Source: Desulfoscipio sp. XC116 (GTDB lineage Bacteria > Bacillota > Desulfotomaculia > Desulfotomaculales > Desulfallaceae). From it: a stretch of 64,000 nucleotides of DNA. The translations under genes were made by a program, and so were the position numbers. This document shows positions 33,231 through 64,000 of this stretch, piece by piece; the first letter of the stretch is position 1; each line of letters opens with the position of its first letter. Below the pieces are notes generated by a model, which searched no databases, was not told where the DNA came from, and worked only from the letters and a program-made list of their open reading frames with translations. The DNA lies in contig NZ_CP156660.1 of assembly GCF_039851975.1 (NCBI RefSeq), forward strand, positions 3,725,035 through 3,789,034. The letters run 5' to 3'.

Positions 33231-33258
33231 TAAAATCAAAGCGCCTGAGCAAAAACAA
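33224..33258 (+). repeat. 35-bp direct repeat R3, left copy (island boundary)
   Basis: CTTCGATTAAAATCAAAGCG plus CCTGAGCAAAAACAA. It matches 45281-45315 in the same orientation with one mismatch (A for T at the eleventh/twelfth base). It abuts the 5' edge of the cobalamin riboswitch. Read with the right copy, it looks like an attachment site or junction duplication around a 12-kb island. Confidence 0.85.
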
Positions 33259-33436
33259 ATATTCAGTTATTACTAATTTAACATTTATTCTACATCTTAG
33301 CAATACTTTGCAAATAACGCCGTATTTCTTGTTTATTTGTTGTCTTTTAATGCGCAAATATATCAATTTATTGATTATTATATTGTTTAATGTGATCTTT
33401 TTAAAAAAATTTATAACCGAGTATTTTTTTGCCGGG

Positions 33437-45367: not shown

Positions 45368-46102
45368 TTACTGCCGCCGTCCGACCGCCTCCCCCTCACA
45401 CCCGGCTGTCGGCGGCCTGACAATAAAACACTTCTTTCTAAACCGTACCAGCACCAGGTAAAAGGACTTGCCCAGTATCAATGTAAAAACGATGTTCCCG
45501 GCCGCATGCAGAGTATCAAAGGCGAAACTGGCCATATAAGTGGCGATAAAGGTTTTCAGCGTCAGAGGGTAGACAAAAGCCAGCCAGTGCCAGATATTCA
45601 TAATCCAGCCGAATAAATAGCCCCAGATTCCACACAACAGCAAAAAAGGTATCCTTTTAAACTCTGTTTGTTTTCTGCCCAGTAATCCCGCCGCCATTCC
45701 GCACAGCCCCCAGGAAAACATCTGCCAGGGAGTCCAGGGGCCCTGCCCCAGAAAAAAGTTGGACACCAGGGCGGCGACAGCACCCACCATGAAGCCGGTT
45801 TGAGCTCCGAATACGTAACCGGTAATCATGACCATAAAGGTGGTGGGCTGGACACTCATAATGACGGCAAAGGGAACCCGGGCAACAGCGGCCAGTGATG
45901 CCATGGTCGCTATCAGAGCGATTTCCCTGGCTGAGATCTCGGTATGATCAAAGCGCCGGAAAAAAGCCAGCAGGGACAGCCCTACCAACAACACCGAAAG
46001 AAGGGCCCAGTTGACGTTATACAACGGGTTTTCCGGAATAACACTCAGCAGCAGCAATAAAGCCGCTATAAGTAATATAACGGTAAAAAATAGTCTTTTC
46101 AT
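45368..46102 (-). CDS. ECF transporter S component, probable corrinoid (CbrT-like)
   Basis: A 244-residue membrane protein, about seven or eight helices in all. After two N-terminal helices comes an ECF S-type core: EIALIATMASLAAVARVPFA, then SVQPTTFMVMITGYVFGAQTGF and VGAVAALVSNFFLGQGPWTPWQ. ATG 46102 with GCAGGTGAT upstream. Next to fused EcfA and EcfT genes in a cobalamin-controlled cluster, it corresponds to the substrate-binding unit of CbrTUV-type vitamin B12 importers, as I recall that group. The substrate is inferred from context. A basic cysteine-containing tail follows the last helix. Confidence 0.8.
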   Translation of the reverse strand: MKRLFFTVILLIAALLLLLSVIPENPLYNVNWALLSVLLVGLSLLAFFRRFDHTEISAREIALIATMASLAAVARVPFAVIMSVQPTTFMVMITGYVFGAQTGFMVGAVAALVSNFFLGQGPWTPWQMFSWGLCGMAAGLLGRKQTEFKRIPFLLLCGIWGYLFGWIMNIWHWLAFVYPLTLKTFIATYMASFAFDTLHAAGNIVFTLILGKSFYLVLVRFRKKCFIVRPPTAGCEGEAVGRRQ

Positions 46103-46394: not shown

Positions 46395-46515
46395 CTTTTT
46401 ATCAAATTCCAAGATTCCCACTTCTATAAGCGGGGGTTCTTATTTTCACTTCGGGTGGGGTGGAATCCCCATCTGAAAGCCCTGATGTCCAGCTTTAGCT
46501 GAACGAGTTCACTTC
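46395..46515 (-). repeat. dispersed repeat R1, copy 2 (3' end of fused ecfA)
   Basis: Minus-strand orientation, starting AAGTGAACTCGTTCAGC and ending ATTTGATAAAAAGG, with the two hairpins CTTTCAGATGGGG/CCCCACCCGAAG and CCCCCGCTTATAGAAGTGGG. The TGA stop of the fused ATPase lies within it. Confidence 0.8.
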
Positions 46516-48176: not shown

Positions 48177-49054
48177 CCCCAGCTCAAAATTACCGGCACC
48201 GCCAGCAGCAATACGATAATTGGCGCCATCACCATTTGATCAAGCTTGATCGACTCCAGCCGGGGATAGAAAATATAGGCGGACCACCCCTGCAAAGCCG
48301 CCCAAATTCCCGCCGCCAAAGCAAAAACGGTGGGAATAAGCACAAGCCAGTCCCGGGGGCGCCAGTAATCGCGAAAGTAAAACGACCTTTTTCCGCTCCC
48401 GTATCCCCTGGCCTGCATAGATTCCGCCGTCTGCATGGAACGCTCCAGAGAAGAAAGTAAAAGGATATTGATTATGGGCAGGCGGCTCCTTAAACGCTGC
48501 CGGCGGGTACCGTAATCAAGTTTTACACCGCGGCAGCGCTGTACCTCCGATATTCTGCGCACATCCCTCACCAGGAGAGGAAACATCCGGGTGGCAAGAA
48601 TGATGGCCAGTACGGATTTACCGCTGAATTTATTTAATAATTTCAATACTTTATCCGGATGTACAGCATAGGTATAAAAACAAAAGGCGCTGATAATGAC
48701 CAATAGGCGAATACCCATGGCGCCGCTGAAACATATTGCTTCCAGAGTAATTTTTAGAGTGCCCAGTAAAGGCACCCGGGGCCCGGTCAGCAGCACCGTC
48801 GACCCGGCGTGAACAAACACAGCGTTTACCAGCATCAGCAAAACCAGCAAGCCCAGACTTAAAAGCAGGTAGGGCTTCCATTCCCGCAGGTTGCCGGAAG
48901 CGATAATCACGCCGCCCGAAACCAAAAACAAGCCCGCCAAATACAGCGGATGATAAAAAATTAAGGACAGCAGAACCAGCACAAAAATATATGCCACAGA
49001 GGTAAAAGGATGAAGTTTATAAATAAAGTTGTCTTTTTCCCGATAGGCAAACAT
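48140..49054 (-). CDS. ecfT: ECF transporter transmembrane component EcfT
   Basis: A 304-residue EcfT/CbiQ-family protein with about six helices. The two short Arg motifs that contact the ATPases are visible as EVQRCRGVKL and AESMQARGYGSGKR (about 180-220). It begins FAYREKDNFIYKLHPFT. ATG 49054 with GGAAGG upstream. Upstream of the fused ATPase and the S gene, giving the order T-AA'-S. The gap to the LytTR gene (49055-49297) holds nothing I can identify. Confidence 0.92.
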   Translation of the reverse strand: MFAYREKDNFIYKLHPFTSVAYIFVLVLLSLIFYHPLYLAGLFLVSGGVIIASGNLREWKPYLLLSLGLLVLLMLVNAVFVHAGSTVLLTGPRVPLLGTLKITLEAICFSGAMGIRLLVIISAFCFYTYAVHPDKVLKLLNKFSGKSVLAIILATRMFPLLVRDVRRISEVQRCRGVKLDYGTRRQRLRSRLPIINILLLSSLERSMQTAESMQARGYGSGKRSFYFRDYWRPRDWLVLIPTVFALAAGIWAALQGWSAYIFYPRLESIKLDQMVMAPIIVLLLAVPVILSWGWKRWTLLRSKI

Positions 49055-49297: not shown

Positions 49298-49660
49298 TCA
49301 GATAAGCTTAACCATCTCATATAATTTACGCTCGTTGTTCTTGCTGATAAGTGCGGTTTCACGGGTATTATGAAACTCTATGTAACGCTTGTCCGCTTTG
49401 CTGCTTACTTTTTTTGCCATCTTCAGGTTAACAAGGTAGGATTGGTGAGATCTGAAAAAACCGGCATCGTTTAATTTTTTCTCTATTTCGCTCAAGCTGG
49501 TGTTAACGGTATGCTTCCCCCGCAAGGTATAAATATCAACCTTTCTGTCACTGGTGGCAAACATGATTATCTCATTCTTGAGCAGGAATATCTTTTCATT
49601 CCCCTGTTTAAAACAAATAATATTATCGCGCCCGACGCATGAAAAACCGGTTATATTCAT
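49298..49660 (-). CDS. stand-alone LytTR-domain regulator
   Basis: A 120-residue protein consisting almost only of a LytTR DNA-binding domain: IIMFATSDRKVDIYT, the FFRSHQSYLVNL segment and ISKNNERKLYEM. No receiver domain. ATG 49660 with AAGAAGGTAG upstream. It lies between the secreted barrel-protein gene and the ECF transporter genes and is a candidate local regulator, perhaps of natural-product or surface genes. Target sites not found. Confidence 0.85.
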   Translation of the reverse strand: MNITGFSCVGRDNIICFKQGNEKIFLLKNEIIMFATSDRKVDIYTLRGKHTVNTSLSEIEKKLNDAGFFRSHQSYLVNLKMAKKVSSKADKRYIEFHNTRETALISKNNERKLYEMVKLI

Positions 49661-49760
49661 GCCACTACCTTCTTTATTTCAGGTTTACCCTTAATCCTAC
49701 CCCGGTCCGGGACACAAAACGTCCCGGACCGGATTCTCTTTCCTTCGACTCTTAAAATAC

Positions 49761-49878
49761 CTTTGTCAAATGTCAAGACTCCCACTTCCATAAGCGGAAG
49801 TTCCCATTCTTACTTCAGCTGGGGCATAATCCCCATCCAAAGCCTCGATATTCAACTTTAGCTGAACAAGTTCACTTC
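49761..49878 (-). repeat. dispersed repeat R1, copy 3 (3' end of the barrel-protein gene)
   Basis: Minus-strand orientation, from AAGTGAACTTGTTCAGC to CATTTGACAAAGG. The TGA stop of the 372-residue gene lies in it at the same position as the ATPase stop in copy 2. Confidence 0.8.
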
Positions 49879-50990
49879 GCCGCGGAACCGCCGGACAGAT
49901 ATTTTTCCGCCATGGGGCGGTACTTTTCGTGCAGCATGTCGTACGCGGACTTTTGATTATAGGCATCGGCCATAGCATAAAGAGCCTGTTCGGTAGACAT
50001 GGCATTATCGTACACGGGCAGCATATCTTCCTCGGCCAATACGTGAGCAAAGCTGCCGTTTTCCAACTGGAACTTAAGCAGAGCGCTTACCGGATTACCG
50101 CCGGAGGGCTTGGTCCATGCTTCACCCATGGGGTCCTGACCCAGCAGTGTGAGAGCCTGAATAACCCAGGCGCAGCTTTCAGGATTCGCAGTGCCCCAGG
50201 AATGGAAGCCACCGTCATCCAACTGCTCTTCTTTTAGAAATGCCAGGGCCCGGGCTACCGCCGGATTGCTCTCATCGGCTCCCAGTATGCTCATGGCCAT
50301 CAGGGCGGCGGCCGTCATATCGGCATCTCCATCCACCAGCTGATAATCTTCGGGATTGTCAAAATGTTTTACATCCCAGTTAAAACCTCCGTTGGGCAGT
50401 TGCTTGCCAACCAGCCATTCCAGGCATTTATCCTGGTTGGGAATGGGCATTCCGGCACAATGCAGGGCAATAACACCGAAACAATGGGCGTTGATCAGGT
50501 CGTCCCCCACCGGCAAACCGGTTTTCTGGTCCGCAATGGAATCGGCGAAATGACCGTTGGGCAGCATAGAGTTTCTTACTGTTTCCACCAGGTTAATACC
50601 GCCGAAATTGTAAGGATCTTTCCCGGCGGCGCACACTCCGATGATGGTGCGCTGGTAATCGGTATTTTTAATTTTATTCAGCTGTATGCCCTGGCGGACT
50701 TCATCCTCCCGCCAGTAAGCCCCGTTTTTACCGTTCACCGTCCACTTGGAACCGCTTATATCCTCGCCGAAACCAAACAACCCCAGGGCCGGCCAGTCCA
50801 GTATGCCGTGAAACTCACTGTCTTTATAGGTATCGTGGTAATAGTTAATGGTCTTTTGAGCGGCGCGATGTACGTCTTCCCTGCTAATTTCAGGTTGGGC
50901 CGCAGCCGCCGACGACAGCCCTAAGCCCGTAATCATCAGCAGGCTTAACAGCGTGGCCAACAACAACCGCATAGTTTTTCTATAATACAT
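49872..50990 (-). CDS. exported alpha/alpha-barrel protein (terpenoid-cyclase/transcobalamin-alpha fold)
   Basis: A 372-residue protein with a signal peptide (about 1-32, MRLLLATLLSLLMITGLGL then AAAA). The rest shows repeated helix pairs with QW-like turns: QLPNGGFNWD (about 195), EEQLDDGGFHSWG (about 255) and QLENGSFAHV (about 310), plus MTAAALMAMSIL, AWVIQALTLLG and TEQALYAMADAY helices. This is the alpha6/alpha6 barrel of squalene/prenyl cyclases and of the N-terminal domain of transcobalamin and intrinsic factor. No DxDD catalytic motif. ATG 50990 with AGAGGTG upstream. Being exported and in a cobalamin-controlled cluster, I infer a corrinoid-binding role. Confidence 0.82.
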   Translation of the reverse strand: MYYRKTMRLLLATLLSLLMITGLGLSSAAAAQPEISREDVHRAAQKTINYYHDTYKDSEFHGILDWPALGLFGFGEDISGSKWTVNGKNGAYWREDEVRQGIQLNKIKNTDYQRTIIGVCAAGKDPYNFGGINLVETVRNSMLPNGHFADSIADQKTGLPVGDDLINAHCFGVIALHCAGMPIPNQDKCLEWLVGKQLPNGGFNWDVKHFDNPEDYQLVDGDADMTAAALMAMSILGADESNPAVARALAFLKEEQLDDGGFHSWGTANPESCAWVIQALTLLGQDPMGEAWTKPSGGNPVSALLKFQLENGSFAHVLAEEDMLPVYDNAMSTEQALYAMADAYNQKSAYDMLHEKYRPMAEKYLSGGSAAK

Positions 50991-51105
50991 AAGCACACCT
51001 CTTTTCTTAAAGTAAAAGCATTGTTTCGCACATCATTCTTATAATCAACTAATCAACTCTTTTTAAAGGCCGACTGGAATCAATATGAAAATTAAGTCCC
51101 AAAGT

Positions 51106-53628
51106 CTACCGCTTAAACCAGTTAAGCCGGCGCGCGGCAATATCCAGTATAAAAAACAGCAGCGCCAGGGGAAGCAGGATAAAGTCCAGGTTGACCACAG
51201 CCCGGTTTTCTGTCACCGGCTGCCGGAATACTTTTAGATCATCGGCTATCAATCGACCGCCGGTCGCGTCAACAAGAGACTGCAGGATTTCTTCCCCGTC
51301 GCCGGTGTTCAGAGCATATTCAGGGGAATAATCCACATGCACCGTCCTGGTCAGGCTGTCTATAATGCTGTCCTGTTTTTTAAGTCTGACCGTTGCTACA
51401 TAGCCCCCCACTTCTTCCAGGGCGAAGCTGCCGCCGTACTTGCCCGGTGCCACCTGCCGCAACACGGCTTCCTTCTGCCGCCCCCCCGGCCCCTGTACAA
51501 GCATCTCCGCCTGCTGCCCGGATTCCGGGGCCGCAGTGGCGGCGGAAACTTCCACTTCACTCCCCCGGCGGGTAAGCTCTACCTGCAGTTCACCTCCCCC
51601 CGCATCCCGCAAGCACCAATTAATCAACCGGGACCACTGTTCCTGAAAGCCCGGCCAGGTCACCCAGGGAGCGCTCCAGCGGCCGTTTAAATCCGGCGTC
51701 CAAGCTATCACTTTCCCCACCCCGTACCGCCAGGCGGCCAACACCGGGTCGTCCCGCCGGCTTTTCAGGAGCAATTCGGCCCCGTCCTTGATTCCGGTAC
51801 CCACGTAACCTTTTAAAGGGGGCGGGGAGACTGCCGGGAAATAGGTTGTCTCCTGTACCTGGACCGGGGTAAACTGCTCGTTGTTAATATATCTTTTGGA
51901 AGCCAGATAAGTTTCCCTCGTGAATATGCGGGGGATGCTCTGCAAATCCCGGGTGTAATAATGCCGGCCCCCGGTGTGCTCCGCCAGGTATTCCAGTTCC
52001 CGGCGGTCGGCATCCTCTCCCACCGCCACAGTTGAGAGAGTAATCCGCTGCTCCTTCAGAGCGGCGGCATAAGGCTGGTAGCCCTCTTTTTCCCCCTGGC
52101 CGTCGGTAAGCAAAATGATATGTTTGACCTTGACCGGAGCCTGCCGCAGTGTTCCGGAGGCTTCTCCCAGGGACGGGATGATCAGGGTGCCGCCCCTGGC
52201 AGCCAGCTTGGCGATACTATCCTTGATTTTATTTGGCTCCCGTGCCGGGCCGAAGGGTACCACCCATTCCAGCGTATCGGCAAAGCCCAGCACACCCAGG
52301 TAATCGCCGGGTTCCAGAACATCCACCGAGCGCAGAGCGGCTTCCTTGGCCATCTCCAGTTTTTTAACCCCGCCGTCGGTATCTTCCATGCTGCCTGAAC
52401 AATCAATCAGCAGCACCAGTCCCAGGTTGGGCTGTTTCTGGTTGCCTTTCATCCGGCAGCGCACCGGCAGTATTTTTTCCAGCAGGGTATTTTCGTAACC
52501 CCCCGGGGCAAAGCTGCGCTCACCGCCGGTAACCACAAGACCGGCGCCCAATTCCCGCACGCACTTTTCCAGACTGTCCTCAAAACCGGGCGGCAAATCC
52601 CGGTAGGCAACATTGACCAAAAAAATCTCCTTGAAACGCGATAGAAATTCCAGATCCCCGGGTACTGTGCCGGGATCGTAACATGTGACGTTCATACCCA
52701 GGCTTTGCAGAAGAGAATTAACCACCGCCGTCTCTCCTTGGCCGCCCACCACCAATATCTCGGGGACGCCTTCCACCATTACGGCGGCGGTCAGGCTGTT
52801 ATTCCCGGCATTCTCATCCCCGCGGAAATCAATTTCCCCCCGGTAATTCAACCTCCCTTCATTTTCCGGGGCCAGTTCAAACCTGAAATTATTGGCACCC
52901 GGCTGCACCGCCACCTCTTTTTGCAGTACCTGCTCCCCGTCGCAAAAGATGCGGATAGTGCCCCGAACCGGCCAAGTACTATCCAGGGTCACGCCGACAG
53001 GCACCCGGGCCCCCGGCTGAACACCGGCCGGCAAGTTCAGCGAGCTGAACTGCACGTCCTGCCGCCGCCCCCCCGGCAAAGGATATACCAGCAGGCTTAT
53101 GTTGTTGTCCCGCAGTTTTCCGGCCAGGGAACCAACGTTACCGGAGTTTTCCCGGCCATCAGTAATTAATACCAGGCGGCGGTTGGTATCCGCCGGAAAA
53201 TAATCCAGAGCAAACGCCACCGCCTTTTCCAGGTCGGTAAAGTTGGGATTCGGCTGCGCGGCCAGCGAAACCCGCTCCACCTGCCCGCCTGCGGGAACGT
53301 CCACCATGGGCTCACGGCCGAAGGTGATCACCGCCACCCTGTCCCCGGACGTCTTGGAGCTTAACTGATCATTGATATATTTTTCCACCGCGGTTTGCCG
53401 GTCTTTGACACTGAGTGACCCATCCACCAGAAAAACAGTCGTGGTGTCCCGGGGAACCAGCACCATCCCGGCCCCGGCCAAGACCAGCAGCAGGCAAATT
53501 ACGGCCAGCAGACGGCAGGCCAGCCACCAGGCAAGGGTCTTAGGGGGTAAACGGCGGCGCGCCCGATAACCCGCCATGGCGAAATAACCGAGCATCAACA
53601 GGGCCAAGAGCAGCAGTTTGATATCCAT
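51106..53628 (-). CDS. large membrane VWA protein with glutamine-amidotransferase-like domain
   Basis: A protein of 840 residues. Two N-terminal helices, a first VWA-like domain (FLVDGSLSVKD; ITDGREN), a beta-rich stretch, a GATase-like segment (EILVVGGQGETAVVNSLLQS; VVTGGERSFAPGGYE) and a second VWA with intact MIDAS (LLIDCSGSMED; LLTDGQGE), then a C-terminal helix and basic end. ATG 53628 is chosen eight bases after the previous stop. Such proteins follow MoxR and DUF58 genes and probably act with the MoxR ATPase in assembling surface or metal-bound complexes. Confidence 0.85.
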   Translation of the reverse strand: MDIKLLLLALLMLGYFAMAGYRARRRLPPKTLAWWLACRLLAVICLLLVLAGAGMVLVPRDTTTVFLVDGSLSVKDRQTAVEKYINDQLSSKTSGDRVAVITFGREPMVDVPAGGQVERVSLAAQPNPNFTDLEKAVAFALDYFPADTNRRLVLITDGRENSGNVGSLAGKLRDNNISLLVYPLPGGRRQDVQFSSLNLPAGVQPGARVPVGVTLDSTWPVRGTIRIFCDGEQVLQKEVAVQPGANNFRFELAPENEGRLNYRGEIDFRGDENAGNNSLTAAVMVEGVPEILVVGGQGETAVVNSLLQSLGMNVTCYDPGTVPGDLEFLSRFKEIFLVNVAYRDLPPGFEDSLEKCVRELGAGLVVTGGERSFAPGGYENTLLEKILPVRCRMKGNQKQPNLGLVLLIDCSGSMEDTDGGVKKLEMAKEAALRSVDVLEPGDYLGVLGFADTLEWVVPFGPAREPNKIKDSIAKLAARGGTLIIPSLGEASGTLRQAPVKVKHIILLTDGQGEKEGYQPYAAALKEQRITLSTVAVGEDADRRELEYLAEHTGGRHYYTRDLQSIPRIFTRETYLASKRYINNEQFTPVQVQETTYFPAVSPPPLKGYVGTGIKDGAELLLKSRRDDPVLAAWRYGVGKVIAWTPDLNGRWSAPWVTWPGFQEQWSRLINWCLRDAGGGELQVELTRRGSEVEVSAATAAPESGQQAEMLVQGPGGRQKEAVLRQVAPGKYGGSFALEEVGGYVATVRLKKQDSIIDSLTRTVHVDYSPEYALNTGDGEEILQSLVDATGGRLIADDLKVFRQPVTENRAVVNLDFILLPLALLFFILDIAARRLNWFKR

Positions 53629-53635
53629 ACCGTCA

Positions 53636-55351
53636 CTAAAGCTCACGTCTGTACACCTGCCATTCCACCGCCAGCAGCACAAGCGCCAGCACCAGGATGA
53701 TAACCTGCAGATTAAGCGGCGGCAACAATCCCGCTGAACCGACGCCCCCGGTTAGCTCATTTTTATTTTGCTTCTCCGACTGCTCAATAGTTCCGGAGAC
53801 AAGTCCGGACGGAGGATTGACAATAATTGTTCGCACCTTTTGACCGCTTTCCATAATTTGATAAACGCCGGGTCGGCCCAAGGTTACCGGAATTCCTTCC
53901 AGTGCCGCGTTAAAACCCTGCGGGCCTTGTACTCTCAAAGCCCGGTCCCGCTCCGGGTAAATCTGATCGCCCGGTTGCAGCCACGCCGCTTCATCCTGGA
54001 AGAACCACGCCAATATATTGTCCACCAGGATGGGAAAAGCCGGGAGCAAAGTGAAATTGGTATTATCCCAGTCCGGCGTAGAATAAAGCCGTCTGTCCGC
54101 TGCCGCCATCACCGGTTTGCCGGCGGCCTCCATTACCACCCGATACCCCGGCTGCAATTTCAGAACGGCGCACTTATTCACATAGGCTCCCTGCAGGTCC
54201 GATTCTAGATCCCTGGCCAGGGTACCCGGGGAAATTGTTAACGGAGCCGGACCGTCTATCTGCCCGCCAAGCATCTTTGCGGGCGGATTAAGCCGCCAGA
54301 CACGGGCTTCCGCCGGGAGCATTCCGGCAGGGGGCTCCTGATTGATAATATATAGGTCGTATTGATCCTTGACCCCATCCCACCGGTCGACACTTTGTAC
54401 GGTAATACCGGGCAGACTGGCAAGGGCTTGCTGCAAATAGTAGCTTTCGCCCACCAGCAGCACTTTTTTGCTAAAGCTGTCACCAACCGGCAGCAGAAAA
54501 GAGTTATCCACGGCAAGCAAATCTTGATTTTGAATGGTTACCCGCAGCAATTGCGCGCCCGTGTCCAGCCGGGGCCAGTTGACATCCGCTTCCCGGCCGG
54601 CCGGGATATCCACCTTCTGAACGTCCCGGCGGCCCCGGTCGTCCTCCAGCTGAAGCAATACGGTGCGGTCGGCGGAAGCGTAATTTTTTACCCGGCACAG
54701 GGCGGCATGGGTATGATAATCATACGTACCACCGGTAATGCCCATATTCTCCAGATGCTCACCCACTTTAATCCGCTTGTCGCCCAGGGGCAGTTCCTTA
54801 TCGGTAATCACCACCCGGGGGGCCGGGCAGGCGTTCAGCACCCCGGCGGCCGTTTCCATATCCAGGACCTCACTGGTACAGGCAATACGCGCCAATCTTT
54901 CCACTACCTCATCGGGGGAGGCTTTTTCCAGTACCAGGCGGCTGTTCTTCTGCAGCAATACCAGGTTAATCCGCACATCGTCCGGCAGTGTCGCCAGGTA
55001 GCCGGTTAGTTCATCCCCGGCCTTGGCCAGACGAGTGGCGCCGCCTTCCACGGCCTGCATGGAGAGGGAGCAATCCAGGGCAATGGTAACCTCCTCACCA
55101 TGCCAGGATGCTATCCAAACAGGACGGGCCAAAGCCAGCACCAACAGAGCACCGATCAAAAGCTGCAGCAACAGCAACAAGCGGCGGTTTATGCTCCTTG
55201 TTTTAACTCCCTGCACTTCCCGGAGCACCTGGTTCCACAGCATCAGAGTAGGGACATTTTTTTCGGCCACCTGTTGTTTGCGGAAATGCAATATAATTAT
55301 CAGGGGCAGAGCCAGGGCCAGCAGCAATCCCATGGGCTGTAAAAAACTCAT
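53636..55351 (-). CDS. BatA-like VWA membrane protein
   Basis: A 571-residue protein beginning with a BatA-type N-terminal region (SFLQPMGLLLALALPLIIIL then HFRKQQVAEKNVPTL), two more helices, a VWA-like domain with MIDAS ALDCSLSMQ (about 90-100) and ITDKELPLGD, a beta-rich extracytoplasmic region and a last helix with a basic tail (VLALVLLAVEWQVYRREL). It overlaps the DUF58 stop (TAATG) and is coupled to it. Part of the MoxR-DUF58-VWA set. Confidence 0.85.
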   Translation of the reverse strand: MSFLQPMGLLLALALPLIIILHFRKQQVAEKNVPTLMLWNQVLREVQGVKTRSINRRLLLLLQLLIGALLVLALARPVWIASWHGEEVTIALDCSLSMQAVEGGATRLAKAGDELTGYLATLPDDVRINLVLLQKNSRLVLEKASPDEVVERLARIACTSEVLDMETAAGVLNACPAPRVVITDKELPLGDKRIKVGEHLENMGITGGTYDYHTHAALCRVKNYASADRTVLLQLEDDRGRRDVQKVDIPAGREADVNWPRLDTGAQLLRVTIQNQDLLAVDNSFLLPVGDSFSKKVLLVGESYYLQQALASLPGITVQSVDRWDGVKDQYDLYIINQEPPAGMLPAEARVWRLNPPAKMLGGQIDGPAPLTISPGTLARDLESDLQGAYVNKCAVLKLQPGYRVVMEAAGKPVMAAADRRLYSTPDWDNTNFTLLPAFPILVDNILAWFFQDEAAWLQPGDQIYPERDRALRVQGPQGFNAALEGIPVTLGRPGVYQIMESGQKVRTIIVNPPSGLVSGTIEQSEKQNKNELTGGVGSAGLLPPLNLQVIILVLALVLLAVEWQVYRREL

Positions 55352-56205
55352 TACACTATCCCCGCCGCCGCGGCCACCAGACTAACCGCTGATTTGCCGG
55401 TACTCCCGAAAACATATCTTACATCCCGCCTGTGGCAAATTGTTCTGCAGTTTTGTATAAATTCATTAACTTTGACCCGGTAAATCGCCCTGGTTCTTTG
55501 ATCCAGATAAACCGGTCTGGCTTCCCCCGTTTCCAAATCAATAAATTTAAATTCCCCTTCGTAGTCGGGGTTCGTTTCCTGGGGAGACAGCAGGTGCAGC
55601 ACTACCACATCCTGCCCCCCGAAGCAAAGATGGTCCAGGGCTTCCGGCAGGCCGTCACCAAACAAATCAGAAATTAAAAAAGTCATGCCGGGACCCGATT
55701 GCTTGCTGTCTATAATACCTTTTAATACGGTTTGCCCCGCCGGTTTTAATTCGCGCACCTCCCGCAGCAATTGATAGAAACTCTCTTTGCCCCCGGCCTG
55801 CTTTTGGATGATCCTAATTTGATCATTTAAGGCGCAAAAGCTCAGCTTATCCCCCTGCTTCAGAGTAATATAACTTAGACCCAGGGCTGCCTTCCGGGCC
55901 GCGGTCCATTTGTTGGGATTGCCGAAATCCATGGAAACGCTGCTGTCCAAAATTATATTAACCTGCAGTTGTCTCTCTTCCGTATATTCCCGGACATAGA
56001 CGTTACCGGTGCGGGAATAGGCCTTCCAATCCACCCGGCGTATATCGTCGCCGGGCAAATATCCCCGGTGCCCGTAAAAATCCAGGGATATTCCCCGCCC
56101 CTTGCCCCGGCGATTTCCTGCGGCTCCTTTAATCAGCCGCTTCCTGCTAAACAGCACCAGATGATCAATTTCCTTTAAAAATTGATCTATTGACAGGTTA
56201 TTCAT
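55351..56205 (-). CDS. DUF58 protein
   Basis: A 284-residue DUF58 protein (VWA-like fold). The family signature is GRGISLDFYGHRGYLPGDDIRRVDW..YSRTG (about 36-70), followed by a MIDAS-like LDSSVSMDFG. These proteins couple to MoxR AAA+ ATPases. ATG 56205, one base after the moxR stop, with GCAGGTG upstream. No transmembrane segments, so cytoplasmic. Confidence 0.92.
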   Translation of the reverse strand: MNNLSIDQFLKEIDHLVLFSRKRLIKGAAGNRRGKGRGISLDFYGHRGYLPGDDIRRVDWKAYSRTGNVYVREYTEERQLQVNIILDSSVSMDFGNPNKWTAARKAALGLSYITLKQGDKLSFCALNDQIRIIQKQAGGKESFYQLLREVRELKPAGQTVLKGIIDSKQSGPGMTFLISDLFGDGLPEALDHLCFGGQDVVVLHLLSPQETNPDYEGEFKFIDLETGEARPVYLDQRTRAIYRVKVNEFIQNCRTICHRRDVRYVFGSTGKSAVSLVAAAAGIV

Positions 56206-56206
56206 A

Positions 56207-57178
56207 TTAATTCACCTGCCGCAATAGTTCCTCTATAATCGTGTCGGTGTCCACCTGGTCCGACCCGGCCCGAAAATTCAGAAAAACGCGGTGGCGCAGA
56301 CAGGGGTGAGCCATAACTTTAATGTCCTCGTAGGAAACGTTATAGCGGCCCCGGGCCAGGGCCCGTATTTTGGCCGCGGCCAGCATGGACTGCGCCCCCC
56401 GGGGACTGGCGCCGCAGGTTACGTAATCCTTGACCAGCTGCAACCGGCTATGGTCGGGATGGGTGGCCAGTATAATTTTCAGAGCGTACTGCTTTACCTC
56501 CGCAGCCACCGGCACTTCCCGGGCAATTTGCTGCATCTGCAGAATCTGTTCACCGGTGGCCGCCTTCTTGACCTGCGGCTCCCGGGAGCCGCCTACTGTG
56601 AGGTCCATTATCCGGGATAAGTCATTCAGCTCCGGCAAGAATATCTTCAACTTAAACATAAACCTATCCAGCTGCGCTTCGGGCAGAGGATAAGTTCCTT
56701 CCATTTCCAGGGGATTCTCGGTAGCCAGCACAAAGAAGGGGTCGGGCAAGGGATAAGATGTGGCGCCCACCGTTACGGTTTTTTCCTGCATCGCTTCCAG
56801 AAACGCGCTCTGAGTTTTCGGGGTGGCCCGGTTGATTTCATCGGCCAGCACCAGGGAGTGAAAGATAGGACCTTTTTCAAATGAAAAGTTCAGCTCGCCC
56901 TGGTTTTTATGCATGATTACAGTACCTGTAATATCCATTGGCATCAAATCCGGAGTGAACTGGATGCGGGAGAAGGAAAGATCCAGCACCCGGGCCAGGG
57001 TTTTTACCAATTGAGTTTTACCCAGGCCCGGCGCTCCTTCCAGCAGCACATTGCCGCCGGCAATAATGCCGATCATAACCTGCCTGACTATCTCGTCCTG
57101 CCCTATGATCAGCTTACCCACTTCACTTTCCAGGGCTGTAAAATATTCTTGAAAATTAATTACGAGATTCCGCTCCAT
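56207..57178 (-). CDS. MoxR-family AAA+ ATPase
   Basis: A 323-residue AAA+ ATPase: Walker A GAPGLGKTQ (about 50), Walker B LVLADEINRATPKTQSAFLEAMQE, sensor VLATENPLEMEGTYPLPEAQLDRF and the lid domain with CGASPRGAQ. ATG 57178 is chosen, with GGGGGA upstream and the previous stop directly in front. Probably remodels or loads complexes together with the VWA and DUF58 proteins. I do not read it as the CobS chelatase subunit: it lacks the partner CobN and follows the general MoxR pattern. Confidence 0.93.
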   Translation of the reverse strand: MERNLVINFQEYFTALESEVGKLIIGQDEIVRQVMIGIIAGGNVLLEGAPGLGKTQLVKTLARVLDLSFSRIQFTPDLMPMDITGTVIMHKNQGELNFSFEKGPIFHSLVLADEINRATPKTQSAFLEAMQEKTVTVGATSYPLPDPFFVLATENPLEMEGTYPLPEAQLDRFMFKLKIFLPELNDLSRIMDLTVGGSREPQVKKAATGEQILQMQQIAREVPVAAEVKQYALKIILATHPDHSRLQLVKDYVTCGASPRGAQSMLAAAKIRALARGRYNVSYEDIKVMAHPCLRHRVFLNFRAGSDQVDTDTIIEELLRQVN

Positions 57179-57179
57179 T

Positions 57180-58733
57180 TTAATTTCCCCCATTTAGCAG
57201 CGTAAAATATTCCATTACCAGTTCTCGCCTGGGCAGGGGTATGGGGTATTTTAAAACGTACTCCATATCCGCTTCCCCGAATTCCGCCCGCACCCGGTCC
57301 GGCGTTGACAATTCCCCGGTTTCCGTCGGCACCCTGTCGGCGGCTTTATCCACCATACCGCCCTCCGTCCCCAGCTGACCCTGCACCCGGGAAAGAGGAG
57401 CTCCCTCTTCGCCCAACCGGGTGGCCTGTTCCCGCCTGGCCAGTTCACCGGTTAGACCTTCGCCGTTACCCTCCCCGGAAGCTTTGTTAGCACCTCCCCC
57501 CACGCCATGGGAACTGCCGGTGTGATGCCCGCCCGGACCACCGGCGGCAAGGTCGCCGCCCGAAGAGACCGTAGTTTCAGCACGGCTGTAGTCGCTGGTC
57601 TCTCCGGCTGCGAAGGCGGCCAGCCGGTCTCCGCCGCCGGGACTGTTAATACCGCCGTTTGTCCGGGCCAGCAGCCTTTCCTTGCTCTGCTGCAGCTCCA
57701 GGGCAACTTTTTCTTCCGGAGCGAATAATTTACCCGTATCAGCCACGGCACGAAGCGCTTCCTGCAGCTTTTCCCCCGACAGAGCGTTATCTTCCAGCGC
57801 GGTTTTCAACCGGGCCAGTTCGCTTTTCAGCTCCGGGGAAGAAGCAGCGCCCGCGGCTTCCTGCAAATTATCGAGCATGGTTTTCCGCTCCGAGTCTGTA
57901 AATTGGCTTTCAGCACTCAGTTTGACGGCCTTTTCCAGGTCTCCCGACCTCAGGGCTTCCCGCAGTACTTGATGCCCGGACCCCGTGCCCTCAAAAATAC
58001 CGGCCAGGCTTTGCATAATCTCATCCTGACTGGCGACCGACCGGCCCAATTCCTTTTGAGCGTCCGCCACCTCGGCAGCGGCAAGGTCAAAATCACCGGC
58101 GCGACTCAGACGGCGCTCCAGCGTTTTTAAAACGGACAATAATTGTTCGTTATTCTCCCGGCCATCTTTCGTTTCCGGCAATTCCTCCCGAATCTTTTTT
58201 ATTTTTCCCGCCTCTTTTTGCAGCTCCCGATTGATCTCTTCCCGCTCTCCGGCCGCCTGCCGCGTTTCCGAAGGCAGAAAATATATACCCCAGGCCAAGA
58301 TAATAAGTATAGCGGCGGCCAAAATTTTTTTGCCGTTAATGCTTAATTTATACCGGCTCAGGGGATTAATATTTTGCACGGCATACTCCGCTTCTTCCCG
58401 GAAGGCTTCCCCCAGGGCAAATTCCCGGTTGCGGTATTCCAGATAAGTCGTAAGCCGCTCTTCCAAGCCAAGTCTGTCCCCGGCCGCCGCCGCCTGTTTT
58501 AAATCAGGCCTTTTCAATAATCCCGCCGCCAGGGCGAGAGCCATCAGGGCCCCCCCGGCATACAGGGCCTTTCCCGGCACGTAAAGCAAGGGATACAAGT
58601 GTGCCGACACCATAAAGACAAACAACATCCCGGCTGTGACCAACAGGCCGCTGATCAGCCAATGCAGAACATTTTCCAGCCATAACTTCCGGCGCAGCTT
58701 TAACAATACCAGGTCCAAGGGGTTACCGGACAA
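57180..58733 (-). CDS. membrane protein with long helical region, MoxR-operon partner
   Basis: A 517-residue protein. Two N-terminal helices (about 20-60), a third near 145-162, then a long charged helical region (about 170-350), a Gly/Ser-rich linker (about 370-420, GGHHTGSSHGVGGGANKASG) and a short conserved-looking end (MEYVLKYPIPLPRRELVMEYF). TTG 58733 with GAGGTG seven bases upstream. Resembles DUF4175-like proteins of MoxR-VWA operons only in layout; no firm family. Confidence 0.75.
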   Translation of the reverse strand: MSGNPLDLVLLKLRRKLWLENVLHWLISGLLVTAGMLFVFMVSAHLYPLLYVPGKALYAGGALMALALAAGLLKRPDLKQAAAAGDRLGLEERLTTYLEYRNREFALGEAFREEAEYAVQNINPLSRYKLSINGKKILAAAILIILAWGIYFLPSETRQAAGEREEINRELQKEAGKIKKIREELPETKDGRENNEQLLSVLKTLERRLSRAGDFDLAAAEVADAQKELGRSVASQDEIMQSLAGIFEGTGSGHQVLREALRSGDLEKAVKLSAESQFTDSERKTMLDNLQEAAGAASSPELKSELARLKTALEDNALSGEKLQEALRAVADTGKLFAPEEKVALELQQSKERLLARTNGGINSPGGGDRLAAFAAGETSDYSRAETTVSSGGDLAAGGPGGHHTGSSHGVGGGANKASGEGNGEGLTGELARREQATRLGEEGAPLSRVQGQLGTEGGMVDKAADRVPTETGELSTPDRVRAEFGEADMEYVLKYPIPLPRRELVMEYFTLLNGGN

Positions 58734-58736
58734 TAC

Positions 58737-59495
58737 TTACACCTCGCGATACGCGTTCTTTAAATTCCGTAAAGTAAGCAGACAGAAAATTAATATAACC
58801 GGGCAGCAAAAGCATAGGTGATAAACCACCGGCGCCCAGCCCACCTGGTTGCCGCCGCCTATTTGCATGTAAAGCAGGCCCGTAACGGTAAGCAGGGGAT
58901 TTAAGAAAAACAGGCCGGGAATGTCTCCGTCAAAAACAGTTGTGACCACCAGCTGCCCGTATGCAAGGTAAAAATAAAAGAAAACCAGCGTTAAAACAAC
59001 CACGGCAAAAATTAAGCAGACCAGGAAATAGTACTGCCACATTTTAGGCAAGTTGGTGGTATGCAAAAAAATACGCGCACTGAGAATAAACATCCCCCAT
59101 AGAACCTGTATAGCCATCGGCCAGAGGAAATTCATGATATTTAGACATCCGGCGATATGAATGATAAAAATAAGCGGAACAGAAGCAAACACCAGAATCA
59201 CCATCTGCCATAGCAGGCCGCCCAGGTAATAGAAAAGCGTTTTAAACGCTGCTCCAACCTGCGGCAATGCCTTTGATTGCTTAATTGACCCGCCGGTTAA
59301 CGCTCCTATTTCCCAGAAGGGAACAAGCAGGGAAAAAAGTAAAAACTGAAAGGCCATGAAATACAAGTAACCCTGCTTATAATCCCCGGGGTTGTACCCT
59401 TCCGCCGGCAGGGCCACCATAAAAAGATAGCCGGCCAGCACTATTGTCAATACTGTTAAATAGGAAAGCATCAGGGTAATATTTTTTTTGCCCAT
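58737..59495 (-). CDS. six- to seven-helix membrane protein
   Basis: A protein of about 252 residues with six or seven predicted helices and no obvious soluble domain; ABC-2-type permease-like in layout. The first segment is ITLMLSYLTVLTIVLAGYLF. ATG 59495 or TTG 59519 may be the start; neither has an ideal ribosome site, and I prefer ATG. No ABC ATPase is adjacent, so the partner is unknown. It lies within the cobalamin-controlled cluster. Confidence 0.7.
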   Translation of the reverse strand: MGKKNITLMLSYLTVLTIVLAGYLFMVALPAEGYNPGDYKQGYLYFMAFQFLLFSLLVPFWEIGALTGGSIKQSKALPQVGAAFKTLFYYLGGLLWQMVILVFASVPLIFIIHIAGCLNIMNFLWPMAIQVLWGMFILSARIFLHTTNLPKMWQYYFLVCLIFAVVVLTLVFFYFYLAYGQLVVTTVFDGDIPGLFFLNPLLTVTGLLYMQIGGGNQVGWAPVVYHLCFCCPVILIFCLLTLRNLKNAYREV

Positions 59496-59545
59496 GTCTA
59501 TGTCCAACACCCCTTTCAAGCGGGCACGGTTCTAATCACGCCTGT

Positions 59546-61606
59546 TCATCCACCTGCCGGTACTTCCGCAGACGCCCCGGAGCCCTTTATTTCAATCTGC
59601 GGAATGATTACCCGCCCGCTCCCCCTGACTTTAACGGCCAGGGAACCGCGGCCGATGTAATCTTCCAACATAGCGTCCCGCAGCATACCGGAAACCAGGG
59701 GTTCCCAGGCACTCTGCCGGCGATTGAAAACCGCCAGTTCTACCTGACCGCCCTCCACCCGGGAATAAACCGATATTTCCCCGGCCCGCACTTCCGGGGG
59801 CAGAGCATAATAAACTGTCAGTTCTTCCCCTTCCCGCAGGTTATAATCATTTTTTATCACTGCGGAAGAATTCCGGTATTCCACCACGGGCTGTACAAAT
59901 CCGGGCGGCAGTGTTACCGCTCCCGTGCCGGTCCGCAAGGCCATAGGAAAAACATGCAGGACCAACTCGTCAACTTTCCGTGGCTTGCCGTTGATTGTCA
60001 GTTCTCTTTGGCCGCGGCTAAAACCAAACATTTTGCACATCACGCCGTCATTTTCCGCCTGGTAAAAGTAATACTTAAACAGTTCCAGCTGATAGCTGTC
60101 CATTTTCCCCGTCCGGGAAACGGTATCCAGGAAGTTATAGTCGCTCAGATTGAAAAGAGTATGTTCCAAACGATACTTAAGCCCCACGCTGTCCAGACCT
60201 TCCAAATCCCCAAGGCCGACGACGGTATCACCCACCAGCAGGAAGCAGTTGACAAGATCGCACGCCAGGGGATTTTTTATTTCCCCCGTCAACAAATCCC
60301 CGTCCAGGGCCGGCCGCAGCGGCGGAGTGCCGCCTGCCGCCGTTCCCCGGCCAAACAGGTAGTGGGGTTCGGCATCATCATAGATAACAGCGGCCCGCAG
60401 GGGGTCGATACTAAACTTTCCGGCACCCGCTTCCTGCACTAAATCCATTCCAGGCAGCTGCACCTGTAATTGTTGGCGCCGGTAAGGATAAATATTGGTC
60501 AGAGAATATAAATCATCGTCATCCCCGTGAATTTGCACGCCGGCGCATACGGCTTTACTTCCGTATAACCCGCCGGACCAGGCCAGCATGCAGAAAATCA
60601 CTGCAAACGCCGCCACAATGGATGGAACCGCCCAACGCGGCATTCCCTGCCAAAAGATACACGCGCCCAGCAAAAGAAGGTAAACAACAGCCAGGGCCAA
60701 CAGAAACAGCAGCGCATGATTTGAAGACCGCAACAAGCGTTCGGCCACCGGCCGCAGTTCTCCGGCGGCCGCGGCCTGTTCGTCAATTCTCGCACCGTTG
60801 ATTAACCTGCCCAATCCCGCGGCGGTAATATATCGTTCAACGGCTTCAGCCACCCCGGACGGGTCGTCAATCACCGCCGGGCTGAAGGAAAGGGGGGCCG
60901 CACAGCCATAACCGACAGCTTTAGCCGCATCCAATTGGTCAAACATACCGGTTAGATTTTTGTAACCGTAGCGGCCTGTTCCCACCAAGGCCAGCCCTCC
61001 GCCGGACAGCCAGCTCCGCAGCAGTTCCTCTTGATCCGCGCCTAAATTGCCCGTATTAAAATTATCCGCTATGATCAAGTTAAAATTTTGCATTTCCGCC
61101 GGGGTAAAAAGAAAATCTTCATCCATATTTACCGTCAATACATCTTTTCCGTCCACTAAAGGTGATTTCAAACCCCTGATATGGTAAAGCTCAGCCGGGG
61201 TATCGCTGAGTAATCCCACCAAAACAGAATTTGCGGGCGCAATTTCCAGAGGCGCCCGGCAACGGGCAATAACTTTGCCTTCGTTATCGGTAAAGTTGAT
61301 CGTTATTTCCCGGTCCTGACTCAAAATCAGCACCGCAAAGGGCAGCATTTTGGTAGTTCCCGCCGGCAGGTCAACCCGGTGCCGGTATAATTTTTCACCC
61401 GCCGCAACAGTTAAGATGCCTTCAAAATCCTGTCCTCCCGACTTCAGCGTCACGCGTACCGGGTTAATTCCCCCGGCCTTGCATTTGCCGTCAAAGCCGG
61501 TCTCCGCGGAAACGGCAACGGAGGCTGAAGCAAAAGCGCTTCCTCCGGTAAACAACCAGACGATAAAAATTATCAGGTAAATGCGTAAAAGCTTATTATT
61601 AAGCAT
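59546..61606 (-). CDS. large exported/membrane protein, MoxR-operon partner
   Basis: A 686-residue protein. Signal peptide or first helix (LLRIYLIIFIVWLFTGGSAFA), a beta-rich extracytoplasmic region with a Rossmann-like stretch (LIIADNFNTG; GGLALVGTGRYGYKNL, about 185-225), two helices in the middle (about 300-350, ALLFLLALAVVYLLLLGACI), then a second extracytoplasmic beta-rich half. ATG 61606 is chosen with AAAGGGG six bases upstream. Similar layouts occur with MoxR/DUF58/VWA genes, but I cannot name the family. Confidence 0.72.
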   Translation of the reverse strand: MLNNKLLRIYLIIFIVWLFTGGSAFASASVAVSAETGFDGKCKAGGINPVRVTLKSGGQDFEGILTVAAGEKLYRHRVDLPAGTTKMLPFAVLILSQDREITINFTDNEGKVIARCRAPLEIAPANSVLVGLLSDTPAELYHIRGLKSPLVDGKDVLTVNMDEDFLFTPAEMQNFNLIIADNFNTGNLGADQEELLRSWLSGGGLALVGTGRYGYKNLTGMFDQLDAAKAVGYGCAAPLSFSPAVIDDPSGVAEAVERYITAAGLGRLINGARIDEQAAAAGELRPVAERLLRSSNHALLFLLALAVVYLLLLGACIFWQGMPRWAVPSIVAAFAVIFCMLAWSGGLYGSKAVCAGVQIHGDDDDLYSLTNIYPYRRQQLQVQLPGMDLVQEAGAGKFSIDPLRAAVIYDDAEPHYLFGRGTAAGGTPPLRPALDGDLLTGEIKNPLACDLVNCFLLVGDTVVGLGDLEGLDSVGLKYRLEHTLFNLSDYNFLDTVSRTGKMDSYQLELFKYYFYQAENDGVMCKMFGFSRGQRELTINGKPRKVDELVLHVFPMALRTGTGAVTLPPGFVQPVVEYRNSSAVIKNDYNLREGEELTVYYALPPEVRAGEISVYSRVEGGQVELAVFNRRQSAWEPLVSGMLRDAMLEDYIGRGSLAVKVRGSGRVIIPQIEIKGSGASAEVPAGG

Positions 61607-61624
61607 AAAACCCCTTTTCACTTC

Positions 61625-62926
61625 CTAATTCATAAAAGGTACATTTTCCACACCGTTTGGGGTAACTACGGCCCCGAAAAATTGGGTGATGGAAGACGGA
61701 TTATTTACTAGCACGTCCAAAGCCGCTTGCACACCGCCGGCATCGGTTCCCGTTACCAGCCAGGTCGGCCTGGTGGCGCCGATTCCCGGCGCAAAGGCAT
61801 AGATGACCCCTGTCGTATCGTCAAATGTTTTGACGGTTTGGCCCTTGGTGTTCAAGGCCTGTATTTTACCGTTTTCAAATTTTACGTATACCCCGATTAG
61901 TTTGTTTTTTAAGTTGGTTTTTTGCAGGAGATCGCTTGCGGCGGACAAATCCCCCCAGGTACCCAGAAGAATATAGTATTTACCGGGGTTTTCCAGCGCC
62001 GACGGGTTGTAAGCGGCCGTGTCTATTTCTTTGACGCCTTGATTTAACAAGCTCTTCTTAAGCTTTTGCGCGCCATCTTGAAAGGAGTCCGTATACATAA
62101 TAACTGTGCCGGGATTTTTACCCAAAAATCCGTTTTTAAAGGGCTGGGGGTACGAACCGATCACCGCCGGGATAAACATGGTGACATCCCAGTTATGATA
62201 ATCCCACCAAATTTCATCCCCGGATTGAGGACGGTATTCAGCAACGCCCACCGGGGCTAAAATACCGTTTATCCAGTAAAACCAGTCCAATTTTTTCCTC
62301 TCCGAACCTGTGTAAAAGGTATACTTGGATTCCAAACCGTTAATTTTATTGACAAACCCGCCGCCGTAAGCGGTTTGGATGTCCAAGTTCCGGAACATTA
62401 CTTCCATGCCCACTTCGTCCTTAACCAGGCCCACTTCTTTGCCAAACATTTTTGTATGGCCGTAATCACGGGTAACGGTTAAATTTACGTGGTAAGGACT
62501 TTCAATATCTCCGGCAGCCTTATAAGAACTGGAATTTGTATCTGCCGGAGTACCTTCCTTATATTTAATTTCTCCCTGTACCGGGCCCTTGTAGCCTTTG
62601 TATGTTTCCCGGTCCACGGCCACACCGGCTTGTTTTGGGGTCGGTTTCTTATTTTCGGCCGCCGCCGGTTCTTTGTCGGAGGCCCCGGCGTTCGCAACGT
62701 TTTTCTTATCCTTCGCCGCAGCGGTTTTTCCGGAATTTTCGGCCGCCGCTTTGGGATTTTTCTCTTTACTGTCGTCCGGCTGTTCCTTACTGTCATCTAG
62801 CGTTACGGATTGTTCTTCCACCTGTTCCGGCAGATTGGTAACCACTTTAGTATCCTTGTCCGCACAAGCAGCCATGGAAAGCACTGCCAGCAGTAAAATT
62901 AAAACAATAGTTAACTTCTTAAACAA
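61625..62926 (-). CDS. DUF4430 (transcobalamin C-terminal-like) lipoprotein
   Basis: A 433-residue lipoprotein. Lipobox LSMAAC at about 16-21, then a Lys/Ala/Glu-rich spacer (about 30-110). A DUF4430-like domain follows (about 145-265: VNLTVTRDYG, then WFYWINGILAPVGVAEY and GDEIWWDYHNWD), and a C-terminal alpha/beta domain (FKNGFLGKNPGTVIM to the end). DUF4430 is named 'transcobalamin-like C-terminal' in Pfam/InterPro as I recall. TTG 62926 with AAAGGGGTG eight bases upstream. Second gene behind the cobalamin riboswitch. It probably binds corrinoid on the outer membrane face. Confidence 0.87.
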   Translation of the reverse strand: MFKKLTIVLILLLAVLSMAACADKDTKVVTNLPEQVEEQSVTLDDSKEQPDDSKEKNPKAAAENSGKTAAAKDKKNVANAGASDKEPAAAENKKPTPKQAGVAVDRETYKGYKGPVQGEIKYKEGTPADTNSSSYKAAGDIESPYHVNLTVTRDYGHTKMFGKEVGLVKDEVGMEVMFRNLDIQTAYGGGFVNKINGLESKYTFYTGSERKKLDWFYWINGILAPVGVAEYRPQSGDEIWWDYHNWDVTMFIPAVIGSYPQPFKNGFLGKNPGTVIMYTDSFQDGAQKLKKSLLNQGVKEIDTAAYNPSALENPGKYYILLGTWGDLSAASDLLQKTNLKNKLIGVYVKFENGKIQALNTKGQTVKTFDDTTGVIYAFAPGIGATRPTWLVTGTDAGGVQAALDVLVNNPSSITQFFGAVVTPNGVENVPFMN

Positions 62927-63002: not shown

Positions 63003-63746
63003 TTAATTTACCAAATGGCCCTTATTCTTAATGATATATTCCCCGGCGCCGGACAGTGAGATATAGTTGGCCACACCCTGGAAAATAGCTTCGGAGGTAG
63101 TCCGTCCGATATAATATCCCAAATCTGTGGCCGTGCCGGCATAAGACAGGGCTTGCCCTTTGCCGGTGCAGGCGATGACCAGCGCATCTGTGGTAGTGCC
63201 TGTAACCAGTTCGCCATCGGGCAGGCAGACATTTGCCTTGAATAAAGCCCTTGTTTTAGCCTCCGTGGCGGTTATTACGGCGTTAACCATGGCGGAGGCG
63301 GTAAGATTTCCGTCAATTAACAAAATAAGATTGATGGTTCCGTATTTTTGTCGGTTGGTTACTTTACCGATAGGCAAACCGGCTACGCCCGGATTACCTA
63401 TCCCCGCCGTGCAAAAAGTGGCCACGGAAAGTCCCCGATGATTAACGTGACTTAGAAAGGTATGGGTGATACTAACAGCCGTCATCATACCCAAGACCTC
63501 TTTTCCCAGCCCCAAGCCCGCGGCTACTTTTGACAAGTCCCGTTCGGGATTACTGCCGTTATAGTCTTTGTCCACAGTATGGTTAATAATGTATCTGGCC
63601 TGGTGAAGATCCGCCCCCAGCACGGCGGAACTCAGCACTTTTAACGGGTTGTCCGACGCAATGAGAAATGTGTTATTGCCGTGAATATAAAAATTGATTC
63701 CCGGAATGGAAACTTGTTTTTTAAAACAGGTTATTTCTTCTAACAA
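63003..63746 (-). CDS. cbiZ: adenosylcobinamide amidohydrolase CbiZ
   Basis: A 247-residue CbiZ homologue, which cleaves the aminopropanol side arm of adenosyl(pseudo)cobinamide and cobamides to yield adenosylcobyric acid for remodelling. Conserved parts seen: MTAVSITHTFLSHVNHRGLSV, CTAGIGNPGVAG, ATEAKTRALF and TGTTTDALVIACTG. TTG 63746 has AGGAGGT eight bases upstream. First gene behind the riboswitch, so its role fixes the theme of the whole cluster as corrinoid salvage. Confidence 0.95.
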   Translation of the reverse strand: MLEEITCFKKQVSIPGINFYIHGNNTFLIASDNPLKVLSSAVLGADLHQARYIINHTVDKDYNGSNPERDLSKVAAGLGLGKEVLGMMTAVSITHTFLSHVNHRGLSVATFCTAGIGNPGVAGLPIGKVTNRQKYGTINLILLIDGNLTASAMVNAVITATEAKTRALFKANVCLPDGELVTGTTTDALVIACTGKGQALSYAGTATDLGYYIGRTTSEAIFQGVANYISLSGAGEYIIKNKGHLVN

Positions 63747-63775: not shown

Positions 63776-63807
63776 ATTAAAAAAACCCGACCTGCGCAGG
63801 TCGGGTT
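63776..63807 (-). terminator. riboswitch-controlled terminator of the cbiZ cluster
   Basis: AACCCGACCTG (63784-63794) pairs with CAGGTCGGGTT (63797-63807), followed on the minus strand by seven T. Lies 85 bases downstream of the B12 box and just before the cbiZ ribosome site. Confidence 0.9.
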
Positions 63808-63889
63808 TAATCGGTATCTACTATGGTGAAAGCCATAAAAAATACACATACCCCTATCTACCCGTAGGCGCTTTCGGTACCGAACAAAC

Positions 63890-64000
63890 AGACAGGTCTC
63901 CTGGCTCAGGTTCATGGAAACCTTACGTCTTCCCATCCGCACTCATTTTGCAAAAATGCTGAACAGTGACTCTGTGTAAGATTTCTCCCCATTACAGTGG
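63890..64000 (-). promoter_or_regulatory. cobalamin riboswitch upstream of cbiZ (truncated at window edge)
   Basis: Minus strand: CCACTGTAATGGGGAG at the edge, then the B12 box GAGCCAGGAGACCTGTC (63892-63908). The 5' half with the GGTG/AAATCC elements lies outside the window. With the terminator at 63.78-63.81 kb it should shut the cluster off when adenosylcobalamin is plentiful. Confidence 0.92.

Follow-up and report, generated by a model that had tools for sequence, protein, structure and literature searches.

The window, a stretch of 64,000 nucleotides from the genome of Desulfoscipio sp. XC116, contains a minus-strand gene cluster that begins with a cobalamin riboswitch and cbiZ and ends with the genes for an ECF transporter. 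A preliminary description made from the sequence alone had outlined this cluster, and each feature it named was found in its place. In minus-strand order the cluster comprises:

genome C1:3788908-3789114, minus strand: complete cobalamin riboswitch aptamer (RF00174, 125 bits)
63874-64000, minus strand: 3' part of this aptamer, as contained in the window (Rfam RF00174, 45.9 bits truncated)
63783-63808, minus strand: strong intrinsic terminator between aptamer and cbiZ (11-bp stem followed by a T-run)
63003-63746, minus strand: CbiZ, adenosylcobinamide amidohydrolase for corrinoid salvage or remodelling (PF01955, 9e-56)
61625-62926, minus strand: DUF4430 surface lipoprotein of 433 aa with a C-terminal alpha/beta domain (PF14478, 1.9e-13)
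59546-61621, minus strand: u691, membrane protein of 691 aa without family match
58737-59519, minus strand: u260, hydrophobic membrane protein of 260 aa without family match
57180-58733, minus strand: u517, membrane-anchored protein of 517 aa without family match
56207-57193, minus strand: MoxR-family AAA+ ATPase (PF07726, 2.6e-61; PF17863, 4.7e-16)
55351-56205, minus strand: DUF58 protein, VWA-like (PF01882, 9.1e-35)
53636-55351, minus strand: BatA-type membrane protein with a VWA-like domain (PF07584, 1.2e-13)
51106-53682, minus strand: VWA membrane protein with a glutamine-amidotransferase-like region (PF13519, 2.8e-26; PF07090, 5.4e-7)
49872-50996, minus strand: exported alpha/alpha barrel of 374 aa, transcobalamin-alpha-like (PF13243, 1.9e-8; PF00432, 2.6e-8)
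49298-49660, minus strand: LytTR DNA-binding protein (PF04397, 9.8e-18)
48140-49054, minus strand: EcfT, CbiQ-like transmembrane subunit (PF02361, 3.3e-17)
46509-48176, minus strand: EcfA, ATPase with two domains (PF00005, 6.6e-59)
45368-46102, minus strand: EcfS, CbrT-like B12 substrate-binding subunit (family profile against 6FNP, 2.4e-26)

The complete aptamer lies above the gathering score of its family, and the terminator downstream of it is probably the expression platform, i.e. an off-switch. From the lipoprotein gene through the second VWA gene, neighbours overlap or are separated by at most about 30 bases, and a gap of 109 bases follows before the barrel gene. The open reading frame of the barrel starts at 50996; an internal ATG at 50990 had been used previously. 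Searches of Pfam and NCBIfam with u691, u260 and u517 gave no match. Between the barrel and LytTR genes there is a perfect 12-bp GC-rich hairpin (49702-49732). No T-run comes after it on the minus strand, which leaves no independent operon end established ahead of LytTR and the ECF genes. A LytTR-only regulator likewise follows the barrel gene at three other loci (L077, L083 and L091).

Relationship of the two surface proteins to transcobalamin

The preliminary description regarded the barrel protein and the DUF4430 lipoprotein as the separated halves of a bacterial counterpart of transcobalamin. Animal transcobalamin, intrinsic factor and haptocorrin consist of an alpha/alpha barrel and a small beta-grasp domain of the DUF4430 type, and both window proteins share these folds by homology, as profile, model and fusion evidence indicate. 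In contrast to the animal carriers, the window halves reside on separate chains, one of which, the lipoprotein, carries an additional domain at its C-terminus. Single chains with the barrel ahead of the DUF4430 domain are restricted to relatives and to paralogs encoded elsewhere in this genome.

The lipoprotein has a cysteine after its signal, and the proposed search with PF14478 located the DUF4430 domain at residues 174-244. Its structure model has an overall pLDDT of 75; in it, the DUF4430 region is matched by haptocorrin and by 5no0, the transcobalamin beta domain in isolation (TMt 0.68). PDB sequence searches with the lipoprotein alone or with a five-member alignment returned nothing. When a bacterial-only domain profile of 60 members was compared with 177,635 PDB sequences, the best matches were transcobalamin-1 (4e-4), intrinsic factor (1.3e-3) and transcobalamin-2 (8.6e-3). 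Thus, the fold assumed earlier for this half is upheld, and its beta-grasp domain is homologous to the transcobalamin beta domain. Foldseek places the C-terminal domain of the lipoprotein (mature residues about 230-413), which is conserved in many of these lipoproteins, close to parts of BcsB and to alpha/beta domains of the GH115 type; perhaps it makes contact with the wall or a glycan.

For the barrel, the connection to transcobalamin runs through natural barrel-DUF4430 fusions, in which the barrel precedes the DUF4430 domain and which this genome shares with many relatives. The window barrel matches the barrels of these fusions with 4e-28 in BLAST and 1.9e-64 in an hhalign profile comparison, and a profile of the fusions is co-linear with transcobalamin-1 over positions 28-391 of 397 (8.4e-8). 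An AlphaFold model of the Desulforadius tongensis fusion (mean pLDDT 90.1) retrieved exclusively transcobalamin and haptocorrin structures from the PDB at Foldseek ranks 1-13 (E 1e-9 to 6e-8), with both domains aligned. As the TM-scores are moderate (0.48-0.56, rmsd 7-10), the packing of the domains differs or is uncertain. Via the fusion barrels, the window barrel is predicted to be a homologue of the transcobalamin alpha domain. The Desulfoscipio genome has seven DUF4430 matches, and two of its proteins are such fusions, of 1253 aa (L032:12044-15805) and 1622 aa (L033:2288-7156). Both are encoded directly downstream of a cobalamin riboswitch and end in repeats that, judged by eye, are SLH-like.

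It is important to consider that a profile of the stand-alone barrels alone detects squalene-hopene cyclase and no transcobalamin, and that, by sequence, the stand-alone barrel also matches this enzyme best. One could therefore read the barrel as an exported terpene/prenyl-type cyclase that has nothing to do with the DUF4430 protein. Yet, in an alignment the position of the DxDD motif is occupied by DADM (D224-A-D226-M), so that D-x-D remains and the strict motif is absent, as had been noted before; most other stand-alone barrels have DVDM. Such cyclases have two barrel domains in about 630 residues and lack Sec export, whereas the window protein is a single barrel of 374 aa with one N-terminal hydrophobic stretch as a Sec-type signal. 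Moreover, cobalamin riboswitches and DUF4430 genes lie adjacent, and barrel and DUF4430 domain form one chain at 43 of the 79 loci described below. In view of motif, size, export and genomic context we rejected the cyclase reading, which we deem extremely improbable. A match to a catalytic cyclase had been set beforehand as an outcome that would speak against the transcobalamin interpretation, and this check did not refute it.

A complement/TED thioester domain was discarded too, as PF07678 gave only a weak match below the cut-off (3.4e-4). Another match below cut-off links the window barrel to the NCBIfam entry 'SCO2321 family membrane protein' (4.7e-17).

Genomic setting across bacteria and the ECF importer

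A scan of named genomes yielded 79 barrel loci with identities down to about 25%. DUF4430 is encoded within about 10 kb at 67 of them and a cobalamin riboswitch is present at 57, so that 75 loci have one or both; at 18 loci, some on short contigs, DUF4430 occurs without a detected riboswitch. For the 49 full-length loci, 40 with a riboswitch (about 4 expected) and 43 with DUF4430 (about 1 expected) were counted, the expected numbers being derived from densities in the Desulfoscipio genome and shared descent making formal p-values too small. Within the order, all 35 genomes with a barrel encode DUF4430, compared with 27 of 78 genomes without one (Fisher 2e-12, although the genomes are not independent). 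The co-occurrence of the two genes, which had been suggested as a check, is thus well borne out. Of 399 genomes drawn across the phylum, 55 had a related barrel. Barrels with nearby cobalamin riboswitches were also seen in the actinobacterial genera Conexibacter, Solirubrobacter, Streptomyces and Kitasatospora (L146, L147, L152, L154, L155).

The loci include a second type of cluster (group 2), typically composed of a riboswitch, a barrel-DUF4430 fusion, a DUF4430 lipoprotein, EcfT, EcfA, EcfS and a barrel. The Desulfoscipio genome also possesses a group-2 cluster, which harbours the 1253-aa fusion.

The family profile of the window EcfS matches the S-subunit of ECF-CbrT (6FNP) at the value listed above, followed by the next S-component at 0.014. 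EcfT and EcfA are encoded beside it. Judging from this homology, EcfS groups with CbrT, a B12 transporter that has been characterised, and transport of cobalamin and cobinamide by the window EcfSAT is predicted. ECF-CbrT likewise combines a homologous S-component with an ECF module (PMC5997447, 6FNP). However, Lactobacillus delbrueckii encodes CbrT in an nrdJ-cbrS-cbrT-pduO cluster without surface transcobalamin-like proteins (PMC5997447), whereas in the window the ECF module is encoded next to the S-component.

The nature of the ligand deserves consideration at this point. It might be another soluble compound, or a cobalt or nickel compound, instead of a corrinoid: EcfT is CbiQ-like and its family is annotated for cobalt transport, 3u7z, a DUF4430 protein of solved structure, carries the name putative metal-binding protein, and Burroughs et al. 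2007 considered that the transcobalamin-like clade binds various ligands (PMC1796856). The CbrT-type S-component, the cobalamin riboswitches and the presence of CbiZ in the operon argue against such a ligand, and we consider it improbable.

In the same paper, a transcobalamin-like SLBB clade of predicted secreted DUF4430-type proteins was described for gram-positive bacteria, along with toroid fusions (including a Desulfotomaculum example), operons with CbiO/CbiQ, a predicted role in B12 scavenging, and a proposed transfer of transcobalamin from gram-positive bacteria to animals (PMC1796856). The window conforms to this clade in that a secreted DUF4430 protein is clustered with CbiO/CbiQ-type ECF genes. 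Since bacterial transcobalamins near CbiO/CbiQ transporters had already been predicted, most of what the preliminary description claimed is not new. The portions of Burroughs et al. considered do not mention cobalamin riboswitches, CbrT, or a barrel and a lipoprotein that bracket a MoxR/VWA module (PMC1796856). In the open-access literature we did not find descriptions of riboswitch control as a rule, the CbrT assignment, the MoxR-bracketing operon or the paralog contrast presented below, nor an experimental study of a bacterial transcobalamin; because this covers open licences only, it is weak evidence of absence, and other work may exist. To that extent, these four points appear to be new. 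The system connects the human B12 carriers with numerous present-day bacterial relatives in a setting of riboswitch, CbrT importer and CbiZ. With this clear physiological setting, the animal-acquisition proposal of 2007 becomes amenable to biochemical tests.

The MoxR module between the two halves

A seven-gene MoxR/DUF58/BatA-VWA module lies between the lipoprotein and barrel genes. The genes for the MoxR AAA+ protein (PF07726), the DUF58 protein and the BatA/VWA membrane proteins are adjacent and have the same order as in other MoxR-DUF58-BatA AAA+/VWA modules. To our knowledge, the roles of the MoxR/BatA gene set are mostly unclear. The preliminary description overlooked the module, and its model, in which two surface proteins close around a corrinoid and pass it to the importer, has no place for it. 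This model is partly supported, by the homology of both halves, the natural fusions, the CbrT-like EcfS and the association with riboswitches.

The barrels closest to the window barrel (61-83% identity) are mostly encoded where a MoxR module ends. Thirteen other genomes, ranging from Clostridia to Aneurinibacillus, have an operon of this type (group 1), and in each of them the barrel gene closes the module. In 12 of the 13 genomes the DUF4430 lipoprotein gene is located directly before u691, and in the thirteenth it adjoins the barrel gene. Ten of these operons have a cobalamin riboswitch at a distance of 128-366 bases upstream from their first gene; in two of the remaining three, EcfTAS precedes. 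Within the order, strong matches to u691 were confined to the five genomes with a group-1 barrel, and there was one weak further match.

As a control, we inspected paralogous MoxR loci of these genomes. The five closest (L176-L180) have the same MoxR-DUF58-VWA order, mostly with an additional ABC ATPase gene, and none of them has DUF4430, a barrel or a cobalamin riboswitch. The window module, on the other hand, is accompanied by both halves and contains no gene for an ABC ATPase in the interval from u691 to MoxR. Therefore, judging the direction by gene content, it appears that an ABC-linked MoxR module has been re-tooled, with loss of the ABC ATPase and gain of the transcobalamin halves and the riboswitch. 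One distant MoxR paralog (L182) has a group-2 cluster, including the riboswitch of that cluster, in its vicinity.

Proposed capture, hand-off and release of the ligand

The gene order, the riboswitch, the homology and fold of both halves, the CbrT-type S-component and the conservation of the operon emerge from the computations. On this basis we favour, as reasonably probable, a riboswitch-controlled system for corrinoid capture and import that employs a bacterial transcobalamin in two pieces; its binding, pairing and hand-off steps and the role of MoxR are what we infer. When corrinoid is scarce, the riboswitch terminator would be read through. The lipoprotein, tethered to the membrane on its outer side, and the barrel, which is secreted, would close around a corrinoid as the two domains of transcobalamin do in animals, with the lipoprotein in the role of beta and the barrel in that of alpha. 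The ligand would then be handed to the CbrT-like ECF importer, and CbiZ would trim or remodel it inside the cell. The MoxR/DUF58/VWA module might drive a step of the cycle, e.g. opening of the clamp to free the ligand. Surface or extracytoplasmic capture of B12 ahead of an importer, as proposed here, is also a feature of BtuFCD and of BtuG/BtuH in Bacteroidetes, whose capture proteins are not known to share the folds of the barrel and DUF4430 proteins. The animal carriers depend on endocytosis, whereas the bacterial version is under riboswitch control and paired with an ECF importer.

The alpha and beta domains of human transcobalamin assemble in a cobalamin-dependent manner when expressed separately (PMC5599065), a precedent for the pairing proposed here. 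A transcobalamin-type carrier would have to bind cobalamin with high affinity between its two domains. In the animal carriers, binding of the ligand begins at the beta domain and is followed by closure of the alpha domain (PMC11107200). A membrane-bound beta half and a secreted alpha half would be compatible with this order.

However, the stand-alone halves need not pair, because the fusions encoded in the same genome could supply complete carriers. The lipoprotein could then serve for docking or relay through its DUF4430 domain alone and the barrel as an accessory. Indeed, group-2 clusters place fusions with SLH-like anchors beside lipoprotein and barrel genes, crystals of the isolated human beta domain contained bound cobalamin although no alpha domain was present (PMC5599065), and operons with a second SLBB protein, for which surface complexes were proposed, are noted by Burroughs et al. 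(PMC1796856). On the other hand, the lipoprotein and the barrel are the only transcobalamin-like genes of the group-1 operons, and both are present in 13 of 13 genomes. We thus regard independent action of the halves as rather unlikely.

If the halves pair as a clamp, its release is a further issue. Since the animal carriers free their ligand only after proteolysis (PMC11107200), a reusable bacterial clamp in two pieces would need another, non-destructive way of release, and the MoxR AAA+ module is a candidate for it. Specifically, the MoxR/DUF58/VWA module, a paralog of the ABC-linked module, might open or reset the clamp at the expense of ATP, thereby releasing the tightly held corrinoid to the CbrT importer and leaving the carrier intact. 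We offer this as a speculation of rather low probability; if true, it would assign a function to one MoxR/BatA module.

The genome encodes CbiD. The organism therefore probably makes its own corrinoid and is not forced to scavenge, and the system may recapture or remodel corrinoid rather than feed an auxotroph.

Further cobalamin riboswitches were observed in this 4.26-Mb, cbiD-carrying genome, nineteen in total. One of them lies in the window (33050-33263, minus strand, 106 bits) and precedes two exported proteins, a repeat-rich one of 2723 aa (24586-32757) and one of 734 aa (22304-24508), taken to be giant surface proteins under riboswitch control. Elsewhere (L034, genome C1:3310000-3329000), two cobalamin riboswitches form a divergent pair, of which one leads into a second cbiZ and the other into genes for an exported protein of 213 aa and for a DUF4430 protein of 1830 aa that carries SLH-like repeats.
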